DNA of 64,000 bases, from positions 1-64,000 of the forward strand of contig CANFDS010000005.1 in assembly GCA_947445525.1 (NCBI GenBank), written 5' to 3'. This document shows, piece by piece, positions 14,681 through 63,208 of this stretch; position 1 is the stretch's first letter; each line of letters opens with the position of its first letter. The stretch comes from Actinomycetota bacterium. GTDB taxonomy: Bacteria > Actinomycetota > Thermoleophilia > Gaiellales > Gaiellaceae. A program made the position numbers and the translations under genes. The notes below the pieces were generated by a model that saw nothing but the letters and a program-made list of their open reading frames with translations, ran no database searches and was not told the origin of the DNA.

Positions 14681-15238
14681 CTAGTCGCCGGGCAGCCGCT
14701 GGAACTCGATGAAGGTACCGACGTCGGGCCGGCGCGCGAATCGGCCGTCACGTTCGATCTCGGCCATCAGCGGCTTCAGTGTGAGCTGGCGCGGATCGCC
14801 CGGCGCGGCATCGTGAAAGAGGGCATGACCACCGGGCTGCAGTTGCAGGCAGAACCGTTCGAAATCGGAGCGCGTGCCCTCGAGGCTCGGATCTCCGTCG
14901 ACCAGGACAATCGCGTAGTGCCCTGCGAGCGGCTCGACTGTTTGCGAGTCCTCGCGGCTCAGATGCACCCGGTCGGCCAGGCCGTAGCGCGCAAAAGCCT
15001 CACCGAGCTTGCTGTCGAAGCGGTCGCCGAGCTGCGGGAGCTTCGACTGGGGATCGAACGAGTGAAGGGTCGCGGCTCGCGCCATGGCCGTCGCGAGCAC
15101 GAGGGTGCTCCCGCCTCGCTCGCGACCGAGCTCGATGAGCGTTGAGGGCCCGGCGTTCGCGGCGAGCCTCCCGAGGTGGGCGACCTCGATCAGCGACATG
15201 GACGCAAGGCCCCGGTTGGCGGGATTGCTGGAGAGCAC
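14681..15238 (-). CDS. class I SAM-dependent methyltransferase, intact core
   Basis: From GTG 15238 this gives 185 residues. STLIELGRERGGSTLVLATAMA corresponds to motif I of the Methyltransf_24-like group, DRVHLSREDS and VLVDGDPSLEGTRSDFERFC to the later acidic loops, and HALFHDAAPGDP to the final motif. The usual length is 230-260 residues, so this is short at the N-terminus. Coding-like sequence continues in the same frame upstream to 15454 and is broken by a TGA at 15401-15403 (see next entry). No ATG, GTG or TTG other than 15238 lies between that TGA and the core; CTG codons do. Substrate unknown. Confidence 0.7.
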   Translation of the reverse strand: MLSSNPANRGLASMSLIEVAHLGRLAANAGPSTLIELGRERGGSTLVLATAMARAATLHSFDPQSKLPQLGDRFDSKLGEAFARYGLADRVHLSREDSQTVEPLAGHYAIVLVDGDPSLEGTRSDFERFCLQLQPGGHALFHDAAPGDPRQLTLKPLMAEIERDGRFARRPDVGTFIEFQRLPGD

Positions 15239-15454
15239 GAGTGGCGCGACATCCTCGAAGCGCTCGAGCTCGGCGGGCCAGCGGTCGAGAGCGGAGAGCC
15301 GCGAGCGACTTGCCAGCCAGTAGCCGACCGATCCGAGCAGCAGGTCGGGCCGCTCGACCGCGACGGTTCCGAGCAGGCGCCTGCCGAGTCCCGAGTCGAA
15401 TCACCGTGCAACCAGGCGGCGCGCACGGGCTCTTGCGGCACAGACGGCATTCAT
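15239..15454 (-). pseudogene. N-terminal part of the methyltransferase gene, with an in-frame TGA
   Basis: The frame of the downstream methyltransferase stays open: GTVAVERPDLLLGSVGYW, then SALDRWPAELERFEDVAP, joining LVLSSNPANRG. Before this is TGA 15401-15403, and before the TGA the same frame reads MNAVCAARARARRLVAR from ATG 15454. The whole would be 257 residues, the normal family length, with the stop at codon 18. A Trp to stop change (TGG to TGA) is the simplest reading. Selenocysteine is unlikely at this N-terminal site. Alternatively a CTG start downstream of the TGA is used. Confidence 0.45.
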
Positions 15455-15549: not shown

Positions 15550-15553
15550 GAGG

Positions 15554-15624
15554 CTGCGGGACAGGGATTCGAACCCCAACTTCCCGGTCCAGAGCCGGGC
15601 GTCCTACCGTTAGACGATCCCGCA
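15554..15624 (-). tRNA. tRNA-Gln, anticodon CTG
   Basis: Read on the minus strand, TGCGGGA and TCCCGCA form a perfect 7-bp acceptor stem. The anticodon arm is CCCGG-CTCTGGA-CCGGG, giving anticodon CTG for CAG codons. The T-arm carries GGTTCGAATCC. The D-loop has TAACGGTAGGA. CCA is not encoded (G discriminator then CC/T sequence). It stands alone, with a terminator hairpin just downstream. Confidence 0.93.
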
Positions 15625-51886: not shown

Positions 51887-52651
51887 GTGGCCAGGAAGCG
51901 CCTCGATGTGCTGATGGTCGAGCGCGGGCTCGCCGAGAGCCGGGCGCAGGCGCAGGCGCTCGTTCTGGCGGGACTCGTGCAGGGACGCTCGAAGGCGGGC
52001 GACCAGCTGGCCGAGGACGCCGAGATCGTCGTCGAGCGCCCGCCGCGCTTCGTGTCGCGAGGTGGCGACAAGCTCGCGAACGCGCTCGCGGCGTTTGCGG
52101 TCGACCCGGCGGGACGTGACTGTCTCGATGTCGGCGCATCCACTGGCGGCTTCAGCGACTGCCTGTTGCAGGGCGGCGCGGCGAGGGTAATAGCACTCGA
52201 TGTCGGGCACGGGCAGCTGCACCCGCGCGTCCGCAACGACGGGCGCGTCACCGTGTTCGAGCGAACGAACTCGCGCGCGCTCGCCGAGCTGCCGTTCGCG
52301 CCGTCGCTTGTCGTCTGCGATGTGTCGTTCATCTCGGTGACGATCGCGCTACCGCCGGCGCTGCGCCTGGCGGCGCCCGGCTGGGAAGCCGTGGTGCTCG
52401 TCAAGCCACAGTTCGAGGCCGGGCGGGCCGACGCGCCGAAGGGGGTCGTGCGCGACGACGAGGTACGCCGCCGGGTCGTGCGTGCCGTTGCCGAGGCGGC
52501 CGTCGGCTGGGACGCCGTGACCGTCGGGGCCGTAGACTCCGGCGTGCCCGGCCCGAAGGGCAACCGGGAGCTCTTCCTCCATCTGCGCCACGAACCGGGA
52601 GCGACGATCGCCGATGACCTCGACCGCTGGATCGATGCCGCCATCGGGTGA
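51887..52651 (+). CDS. tlyA: TlyA-family rRNA methyltransferase
   Basis: 254 residues. An N-terminal S4 RNA-binding domain (RKRLDVLMVERGLAESRAQA, about 1-62) is joined to an FtsJ-like methyltransferase domain. DVGASTGGFSDCLLQGG is SAM motif I, VCDVSFISVTIALP and VVLVKPQFEAG carry the catalytic Asp and Lys. Mycobacterial TlyA 2'-O-methylates 16S and 23S rRNA. Length is normal. The gene order tlyA-nadK-recN-steA is the standard actinobacterial order. Start GTG 51887; the last bases overlap nadK. Confidence 0.93.
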   Translation: MARKRLDVLMVERGLAESRAQAQALVLAGLVQGRSKAGDQLAEDAEIVVERPPRFVSRGGDKLANALAAFAVDPAGRDCLDVGASTGGFSDCLLQGGAARVIALDVGHGQLHPRVRNDGRVTVFERTNSRALAELPFAPSLVVCDVSFISVTIALPPALRLAAPGWEAVVLVKPQFEAGRADAPKGVVRDDEVRRRVVRAVAEAAVGWDAVTVGAVDSGVPGPKGNRELFLHLRHEPGATIADDLDRWIDAAIG

Positions 52652-57611: not shown

Positions 57612-60497
<2,886 letters not shown>

Positions 60498-60503
60498 GCC
60501 CCG

Positions 60504-61064
60504 GTGGAGCGGCCCGTGCCGGCACAGGCGAAGCTGGTCCTGGCCGAGCACGGGGTGGCACCCGAGGGCGAAGGCTGGTTCGTCGTCAACGCCGCCGACA
60601 CCGTGTGGCGCCGCCTCGAGGAGTACGGTGACTGGTGCACGTTCGAGGGCACGGGCGCTGCGCGCTTCAAGGAGGTCGGCATCAACCTCCACGTGCTCGA
60701 GCCCGGCCAGCCGAGCTGCAAGTACCACGGCGAGAGCGCCCAGGAGGACTTCCTCGTGCTGTCGGGCGAGTGCATCGTCGTGATCGACGGCGAGGAGCGC
60801 CACCTGCGGGCCTGGGACTTCGTGCACTGCCCGTCGTGGACGGAGCACGTGTTCGTCGGCGCCGGCAGCGGGCCGTGCCTGCTGCTGATGGTCGGCGCCC
60901 GCCCGGAGACCGTCGGGATCAGCTACCCGGTGTCGGAGCCGGCAGCGCGCCACGGTGCATCGGTCGCCGCCGAGACCCCGGAGCCGCGCGAGGCCTACGC
61001 GGGCACGACGCCGCGATACGAGATCCCCGCGCGCCGTGACGTCCTGCCCGGGGCGCCGCGCTGA
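60504..61064 (+). CDS. cupin-domain protein
   Basis: 186 residues, starting GTG 60504. One cupin barrel: GQPSCKYHGESAQEDFLVLSGECIV carries motif 1 (YH, E) and LRAWDFVHCPSWTEHVFVG motif 2 (His of TEHVF). The C-terminus SEPAARHGASVAAETPEP-type is polar. Many such proteins bind a metal and a small ligand; the reaction is not known. Its TGA overlaps a CTG codon that appears to start the next gene, so the two are coupled. Confidence 0.78.
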   Translation: MERPVPAQAKLVLAEHGVAPEGEGWFVVNAADTVWRRLEEYGDWCTFEGTGAARFKEVGINLHVLEPGQPSCKYHGESAQEDFLVLSGECIVVIDGEERHLRAWDFVHCPSWTEHVFVGAGSGPCLLLMVGARPETVGISYPVSEPAARHGASVAAETPEPREAYAGTTPRYEIPARRDVLPGAPR

Positions 61065-62173
61065 GCGACGTCGTCGACCTCTTCGTCGAGCTCGCCGCGA
61101 TCGCGAGCCCGAGCGGGGAAGAGCGCGCCGCGGCCGAGGCTGTCGCCCGCTACCTGCGGGGGCTCGGCCTCACCGTCAGGGAAGACGACGCGGGCAGCCG
61201 GATCGGCTCCAACTGCGGGAACCTCATCTGCACGCTGCCCGCGACCGCACTTGGCACGCCCATCTTCCTGTGCGCGCACCTCGACACCGTGCCGCCCGCC
61301 GGGCCGCTGCAGCCGGTCGTCGCCGACGGCTTCGTGCGCAATGCGGGCGGCACGATCCTCGGGGCCGACAACAAGGCGGCGATCGCCGCGATGCTCGAGG
61401 CGGTGCGCCGCATTGTCGTCGAGCGGCGGCCTCACGCCGGCATCGAGCTGCTGTTCACGCTGCAGGAGGAGGTCTCACTCGGCGGAGCGCGCGAGCTCGA
61501 CCTCGACAGCGTCGTTGCAACGGTGGGCTTCGTCTACGACCAGACAGGGCCGATCGGCGAGATCATCCTCGGCGCACCGCACCAGGGCGCCGTCGACCTC
61601 ACCTTTCACGGCCGCGCTGCGCATGCGGGCATCGCCCCCGAGGAAGGCCGGTCGGCGATCGCGGCGGCAGCGCGCACGATCGCGGCGCTTCGCCTCGGCC
61701 GCCTCGACGACGAGACGACTGCCAGCGTCGGCCTGATCGCCGGCGGAACCGCGCGGAACGTCGTGCCGGAACGCTGCTCCGTCTCGGTCGACGTCCGCTC
61801 GCACGACGCGGCCAAGCTGGCGGCGCTCGTCCAGGAGGTCATGGACGCCGCCGCGTTCGCAGCCAACGCCGCGGGGTGCACGCTGGACGCACACGTCCAG
61901 GAGACCGCGCCTGGCTACCGCTTTGCCCCCGACATCCCCGCGATCCGCCTCGCGCAGAGCGCGCTCACGCGCGCCGGGTACGAGCCGCGGCTCGCCCTCA
62001 CCGGCGGCGGCGCCGACGCGAACGCCTTCAACCAGCGCGCCCGCCAGTGTGTAAACCTCTCCAACGGCATGGCCGACATCCACTCTCCTGGTGAGCACAT
62101 CGCGGTCGCCGACCTCGAGGGGATGATCGAGGTCACGCTCGCGCTCGTGGACGTCGCCCGCGAGGGCGGCTGA
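61061..62173 (+). CDS. M20/peptidase T-like metallopeptidase, probable CTG start
   Basis: 370 residues if CTG 61061 is the start. The start is forced: an in-frame TGA lies just upstream and no ATG, GTG or TTG occurs before the catalytic motif FLCAHLDTVPP; the first GTG (61289) would delete it. CTG 61061-61063 overlaps the cupin TGA as CTGA, the same 4-nt arrangement as the GTGA starts in this window. Other family residues: ILGADNKAAIAAML (Asp-Asn-Lys), LFTLQEEVSLGGA (Glu-Glu), GRAAHAGIAPEEG, and MADIHSPGEHIAV (His). It cleaves di- or tripeptides or related amide bonds; substrate unknown. Confidence 0.82.
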   Translation: MSDVVDLFVELAAIASPSGEERAAAEAVARYLRGLGLTVREDDAGSRIGSNCGNLICTLPATALGTPIFLCAHLDTVPPAGPLQPVVADGFVRNAGGTILGADNKAAIAAMLEAVRRIVVERRPHAGIELLFTLQEEVSLGGARELDLDSVVATVGFVYDQTGPIGEIILGAPHQGAVDLTFHGRAAHAGIAPEEGRSAIAAAARTIAALRLGRLDDETTASVGLIAGGTARNVVPERCSVSVDVRSHDAAKLAALVQEVMDAAAFAANAAGCTLDAHVQETAPGYRFAPDIPAIRLAQSALTRAGYEPRLALTGGGADANAFNQRARQCVNLSNGMADIHSPGEHIAVADLEGMIEVTLALVDVAREGG

Positions 62174-63208
62174 GTGGCCGCGACCCTTCACCGCGGAAGG
62201 GTCACCACGATCGCAGAGCGTCACCCCGGGTTCGTGCGCCTCACCGTTGACGGTGTCTCCTGCATCGCGTATCCGCCGCTGACGGGGCCGGTCGCGGTCG
62301 GTGATGAAGTTGTCGTCAACGTGCAGGCACGCCAGCTCCGGCTGGGATCGGGCGGGTTCGACGTGCTCGTGGTCAACCTGACGCGCGGGCTCGGGCTCGC
62401 CCCCGACGCCGGCGCGCACGTGATGACGCTGCCGTACACGCCGCTGCAGGCAGCCGTACGCCAGCTCGAGGAGGACGAGCCCGGTGGTCGGATCGACGAG
62501 GGAGCCGGGCCGGGGGCGCCGCTCGACGGCCTGCCCGTGGTGTGCTGCTCGCTGCACGCCCAGCTGGTACCGGTCTGCGCGGGCCTGGGCGAGGGGCTGC
62601 GCGTCGCGTACGTCCAGCTCGGGGGCGGGGCGCTGCCGGTGGCGCTCTCCGATGCTGTGCGGACGCTGCAGGCGCGCGGGCTGCTGGAGGCCGTGGTGGC
62701 CGTCGCGCCGTGCTTCGGCGGTGACGCTCAGGCGGTGTCGGTGGCGACGGCGCTTGCCTGGGCCGGGGCGCAGGGCTTCGACGTCGCCGTCTGTGGCATC
62801 GGCCCCGGGGTCGTCGGAACGGGCAGCCGCTACGGGCACGGCGGCCTCGCAGTCGCCGAGGCGGCCAACGCTGCCGTCGCGCTCCGCGGCCGCGCCGTCG
62901 TCGCCGCGCGCGTCTCGGGTGCCGACCCGCGCAAGCGGCATCGGGGGCTCTCGCACCACACCCGCTCGGCGCTCGAGCTGAGCCTCGGCGACACCCTCGT
63001 CGCCTGGCCGGCCGGGGCACCGCATCCGGCCGCGCTGCCGGGCCGGGCCACGTTGCGCGAGGTCGATGCGACCGGGTGGGCCGCGGCCTGTGCCGGGCTG
63101 CCGCTCGCCCACATGGGCCGGGGGCCGGACGACGACCCGGACTTCTTCGCGGCGGCGTACGCCGCCGGCCGACTCGCCCGGGAGCTCGCCGGGGAGCTCG
63201 CCAGATGA
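62174..63208 (+). CDS. DUF3866-family protein
   Basis: 344 residues. It starts AATLHRGRVTTIAERHPGFV, then an OB-like stretch (GDEVVVNVQARQLRLGSGGF), VLVVNLTRGLG, HVMTLPYTPLQAAV, PVVCCSLHAQLVPVCAG, and CGIGPGVVGTGSRYGHGGLAVAEAAN, which is the DUF3866 pattern. The family is found in Gram-positive bacteria and actinobacteria near nudix or peptidase genes; its function is unknown. GTG 62174 directly follows the upstream TGA. The downstream nudix gene overlaps it by ATGA. Confidence 0.85.
   Translation: MAATLHRGRVTTIAERHPGFVRLTVDGVSCIAYPPLTGPVAVGDEVVVNVQARQLRLGSGGFDVLVVNLTRGLGLAPDAGAHVMTLPYTPLQAAVRQLEEDEPGGRIDEGAGPGAPLDGLPVVCCSLHAQLVPVCAGLGEGLRVAYVQLGGGALPVALSDAVRTLQARGLLEAVVAVAPCFGGDAQAVSVATALAWAGAQGFDVAVCGIGPGVVGTGSRYGHGGLAVAEAANAAVALRGRAVVAARVSGADPRKRHRGLSHHTRSALELSLGDTLVAWPAGAPHPAALPGRATLREVDATGWAAACAGLPLAHMGRGPDDDPDFFAAAYAAGRLARELAGELAR

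Follow-up and report, generated by a model that had tools for sequence, protein, structure and literature searches.

An M20 peptidase gene in the draft genome of an uncultured actinobacterium is very likely to start with a rare codon, CTG, which overlaps the stop codon of the preceding cupin gene. This putative CTG start is part of a recurrent CTG pattern in the actinobacterial family to which the genome belongs. In addition, it seems highly likely that the peptidase is started at CTG 61061 by re-initiation after the cupin, with a weak start whose output would depend on the translation of the upstream open reading frame (ORF). The window, i.e., the whole stretch of 64,000 nucleotides that was analysed, corresponds to contig 5 of this 2.43 Mb draft genome (G000), and the features discussed are collected in Table 1. 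Genes were called with our own simple codon-usage caller, which uses position-specific GC. The codons ATG, GTG and TTG are referred to as the usual start codons.

Table 1. Features of the pyrG–DUF3866 region, with their positions in the window
Feature	Position	Strand	Basis and remarks
pyrG (CTP synthase)	58851..60497	+	NF003792, 7.4e-252; synteny; immediate upstream neighbour of M20 in most other genera
Cupin gene, 186 aa, upstream partner	60504..61064	+	PF07883, 5.2e-13; full-length in G002, 54 codons in G001
In-frame TGA before the M20 frame	61037..61039	+	Rules out a start farther upstream
CGGGG, weak Shine-Dalgarno-like stretch	61049..61053	+	Duplex energy of -5.0 with the anti-SD
M20 peptidase, PepT-like, 370 aa	61061..62173	+	TIGR01883, 7.3e-96 over residues 4-363; Pfam M20
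CTG, proposed M20 start codon	61061..61063	+	No other start-like codon close to the homologous N-terminus; CTG shared with G002 and G001
CTGA, where M20 start and cupin stop overlap by 4 nt	61061..61064	+	Sequence; kept in three species
Predicted M20 N-terminus from CTG 61061			(M)SDVVDLFVELAAIASPSGEER
HLDT motif (metal-ligand His, catalytic Asp), H73-L-D-T76	61277..61288	+	Translation; aligned to PepT 3gb0
GTG, first ATG/GTG/TTG of the M20 frame (codon 77)	61289..61291	+	Resulting protein would lack HLDT
DUF3866 gene, next in the cluster	62174..63208	+	PF12982, 1.1e-76

The Peptidase Frame and Its Probable Start Codon

The M20 protein belongs to the PepT-like group according to TIGR01883, which scores 321 bits (curated cut-off, 274) and covers model positions 2-360 out of 361. 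Both this model and the structure PDB 3gb0 align to the protein from residue 4 onwards, and the starts of about 30 orthologues from other genera, mostly GTG or ATG, lie in a cluster that spans roughly -8 to +3 codons relative to the CTG position. Consequently, the gene is expected to begin at 61061, where CTG is the sole plausible start available. A sequence-only reading of the window had noticed that the frame is devoid of ATG, GTG and TTG ahead of its catalytic motif, with a stop codon lying just before, and had suggested an alignment of homologue starts as a check on the CTG it proposed. The first point holds, since no usual start compatible with the protein occurs between TGA 61037 and GTG 61289, which directly follows HLDT, and the proposed CTG start gains support from both the clustered orthologue starts and the CTGA shared by three species.

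When nine contigs (464 kb, with 490 genes scored) were scanned for codon usage, the M20 gene ranked second for the loss of coding signal upstream of the first usual start, and the only gene losing more was a weak, isolated frame without neighbours. The weight that lifts the observation above chance comes from the missing alternative starts and from the orthologues; the C of CTGA says little by itself, because CGC accounts for 53% of the arginine codons.

The CTGA Junction and Its Genomic Context

The genes are arranged in the order pyrG, cupin, PepT-like M20 and DUF3866, followed by a NUDIX gene. The cupin stop is TGA 61062-61064, and the four-nucleotide overlap with CTG 61061 described in the sequence-only reading is indeed found at the junction, as are all seven GTGA sites with which it was compared (6275, 25781, 27007, 43731, 49040, 55170 and 58851), the frame following GTGA 49040 being only 63 aa long. 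The cupin and M20 genes lie on the same strand and display the shared start and stop bases and the -4 spacing of NTGA pairs, but the downstream start is CTG instead of the ATG, GTG or TTG by which such pairs are defined. At the position equivalent to CGGGG, the related genome G001 possesses GACGGGAG, with a duplex energy of -6.6.

Elsewhere in the window, a minus-strand ORF (14681-15400) adjoining tRNA-Gln (15552-15624) shows a coding signal with no usual start for 54 codons and is possibly a truncated gene. A tRNA-Gly was called on the minus strand at 52502-52597, with an unusual length of 96 nt.

Start Positions in Related Bacteria

The peptidase is present in 93 of the 101 genomes searched. 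Within the genus, CTGAGCGA occurs at the place matching CTG 61061 in both G002 and G001, whose peptidases are 90% and 69% identical to M20, respectively, and CTGA is kept in all three species, this comparison being limited to three members of which G001 and G000 share ancestry. The peptidase frame of G001 remains open upstream and contains an in-frame GTG 16 codons ahead of CTG, in a stretch that reads as non-coding (LLR -9.8). Among the other genera in which the locus is readable, none was found to carry a cupin between pyrG and the peptidase, and most have pyrG as the immediate upstream neighbour. The peptidase often starts there a few bases past a TAAGAT or TAGGAT box resembling a leaderless promoter. 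Two orthologues (L019 and L025, from G049 and G005) apparently have ATC and ATT, respectively, as their start codons, right after such a leaderless-type -10 box.

The gap between pyrG and the peptidase of G001, where the cupin is not detectable, contains a 54-codon ORF as compared to the 186 codons of the cupin gene. The start codon, the frame, the C-terminal tail, the stop and CTGA have been kept, whereas the core has been lost. This ORF matches the N-terminus and the C-terminal tail of the cupin (CYEISPRRHLLDGSAR against RYEIPARRDVLPGAPR), with a homology score of 79; the 1000 shuffled sequences scored 8.9 on average, and none of them attained 79. The coding signal amounts to +17.3 in the frame of the ORF, while the peptidase frame is negative over the last 16 codons before CTG. 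These features, seen in a single species, are suggestive of an ORF that would be kept because its termination feeds CTG.

Putative CTGA Overlap Starts in the Family

Using stretches from five genomes, a census was made of the frames that could open 4 nt ahead of the end of a gene's stop codon, retaining those with no ATG, GTG or TTG within 14 codons upstream or downstream. Frames over TAG and TAA stops, which cannot give NTG starts, served as controls, and the census rests on the gene caller mentioned above. In 846 kb of G000, 46 ATGA, 55 GTGA and 3 TTGA overlap frames were counted, and a usual start was lacking in 9 out of 30 CTGA frames versus none of the 32 TAG/TAA frames (Fisher p = 0.0007). 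Samples of 128-400 kb from G001, G002, G020 and G100 yielded one CTGA case in total at the 14-codon threshold. The excess at the genome level has so far been shown for G000 only, the G001 and G002 samples having yielded no further strong case.

About six of the nine G000 cases look convincing. Those better supported by homology or domain coverage comprise M20, a luciferase-like monooxygenase, a FUSC-like protein (its CTGA also occurring in G002), a PAP2 protein, a PIN toxin and a YraN protein. At least two of the nine, RmlD and C7:4673, passed the filter but probably start elsewhere, upstream of their CTG. The RmlD-like gene of G000 (L174:13199, minus strand) overlaps the gene upstream of it, with an apparent start at ATC (IRRVLITGANGQLG). 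Other unusual N-termini were encountered in a RecF-like frame of G001 (L232:12871, minus strand), devoid of a usual start at a CTAATC junction, and in an FtsI-like PBP (L107:14087-15787, minus strand, L121 and L122), which has no ATG, GTG or TTG before its membrane helix in all three genus members and displays a conserved GTC where relatives have GTG, ATG or TTG.

The PAP2 gene located behind a response regulator gene extends the pattern beyond the genus. In about 24 genomes from 11 genera, CTG occupies the homologous position, four (or three) codons before a conserved Asp residue, with no usual start in the preceding 25 codons in all but one genome. The start position is thus kept among homologues for PAP2 as it is for M20. 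All the overlapping response regulator/PAP2 pairs are devoid of ATGA and GTGA, and ATG or GTG occurs close to the CTG position in a few PAP2 relatives. At the corresponding junction of G008 (L218), ATAG occurs with neither CTG nor a usual start nearby. In four genomes (G049, G043, G102 and G141), the stop of the response regulator has moved away from PAP2 and CTG is unchanged, so that CTG is not imposed there by TGA. These non-overlapping CTG codons provide our best evidence that CTG may be selected as a start.

Alternative Explanations

The start that a standard gene finder would report is GTG 61289, the first usual start codon of the frame, which would give a shorter protein of 294 aa. Such a start is extremely unlikely, since it removes 76 residues including HLDT, and since the part upstream of it carries a coding signal and is conserved at the protein level both across three species and in PepT structures; moreover, GTG 61289 is not the first usual start in G002, where codon 55 takes its place. 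Another near-cognate codon, e.g., ATC 61121 (codon 21), might also be considered, given that the apparent ATC and ATT starts of the G049 and G005 orthologues imply that the family may make use of near-cognate starts. However, a start at ATC 61121 would leave the protein without the conserved N-terminal helix VDLFxELAAI, and the orthologues do not start at this position, which leaves the proposal with very little probability.

The overlap of the cupin and peptidase frames, together with the open upstream frame of G001, would also be compatible with a ribosomal frameshift at the end of the cupin, producing a cupin–peptidase fusion. No slippery run is visible by inspection at the junction, TGA 61037 leaves only seven codons for the frameshift in G000 and G002, and in other genera the peptidase gene stands by itself behind pyrG and has a start of its own, all of which makes the fusion most improbable. 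An assembly error hiding an ATG or GTG, or a dead gene, comes to mind with draft metagenome assemblies, the contamination of G000 reaching 8%, but it appears scarcely credible when the same CTG occurs in three assemblies whose encoded proteins are 69-90% identical and whose frames and motifs are intact. This agreement excludes in practice the missed indel that the sequence-only reading had kept in reserve.

A Possible Initiation Mechanism

We infer that initiation takes place at CTG, by re-initiation of the terminating ribosome and with a low output. Ribosomes finishing the cupin at TGA 61062 would linger close to the junction and, stepping back one base, re-initiate on CTG, with which the initiator fMet-tRNA would pair imperfectly at the first codon position; the M20 start would be weak and its output tied to the translation of the upstream ORF. 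CTG as the start, with coupling to support it as put forward in the sequence-only reading, is thus the interpretation that fits best. Coupling is strongest at overlaps, where the final 15 nt of the upstream gene can suffice (PMC10666635), and NTGA overlaps are the most frequent coupled arrangement (PMC12548453).

A compensation of CTG by a strong Shine-Dalgarno sequence was not observed, the sites of the CTG set being weaker than those of ATGA/GTGA genes (mean duplex energies of -4.0 kcal for the CTG set, -6.1 for GTGA and -3.7 for the background). The search for an altered initiator tRNA revealed an ordinary GGG/CCC anticodon stem, IF3 is ordinary by eye, and no relaxed machinery was found among these components; because the stem is ordinary, a relaxed tRNA like the M1 variant (PMC11497404) is not the reason for the CTG start. 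At ordinary gene ends in the G000, G001 and G020 samples, GTGA is strongly avoided relative to CTGA (in G000, 27:155 versus 156:171 before TAG/TAA, p = 2e-14), and it is not avoided in the outgroup G100. The avoidance of GTGA but not of CTGA suggests that CTG is generally a poor codon for re-initiation, which counts against the preferred re-initiation at CTG 61061. Taken with the weak Shine-Dalgarno stretch and with an efficiency of CTG about ten-fold below that of TTG in Escherichia coli (Hecht et al., as cited in PMC11983097), it makes a low M20 output probable.

Significance and Comparison with Known Systems

To our knowledge, common gene finders do not look for CTG starts. As related bacteria apparently keep such starts, standard gene finders would misread the genes concerned. 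On a wider and more tentative view, which falls somewhat short of an even chance, the family would use CTG (occasionally ATC, ATT or GTC) as a regular start, mainly in stop–start overlaps fed by terminating ribosomes; some of these starts would have been kept for a long time for low expression, such as PAP2 in 11 genera, and the cupin of one species would have decayed to an ORF kept only for delivering ribosomes to CTG. If true, conserved CTG starts would occur in perhaps 0.5-1% of the genes of the family, whose annotations would be systematically wrong at these places, and natural material would become available for testing whether re-initiating ribosomes are laxer on the start codon than fresh ones.

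CTG starts and NTGA coupling are each known, and what appears to be new is that the two are combined, in a form that is conserved across species and found repeatedly within a single actinobacterial family. CTG is rare among annotated starts, with 20 out of about 85,000 genes according to a figure quoted in PMC11983097, and AUG-to-CUG switches amount to 2 among 61,358 ancestral AUG starts (PMC5622118).

With NTGA (-4 nt) termination–reinitiation coupling (PMC6728339, PMC10666635 and PMC12548453), the cupin/M20 pair shares its geometry and its co-directional genes. The examples given in the available parts of these papers are ATGA and TGATG, whereas the present pair displays CTGA; a term search in the available text of PMC10666635 returned neither CTGA nor CUG. 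Compared to other PepT-like M20 proteins (TIGR01883; PDB 3gb0), with which it shares the full-length match, the motifs and the N-terminus, the M20 peptidase is unusual only by its start codon and its cupin partner, its relatives being started by GTG or ATG behind pyrG. The closest likeness in start codon is found in the rep gene of FIB plasmids, for which a CTG start has been experimentally proven, is usually mis-annotated at a downstream GTG and is thought to keep expression low (PMC11983097). However, rep relies on a good ribosome-binding site without any overlap, whereas the CTG proposed for M20 is embedded in a chromosomal stop–start overlap.
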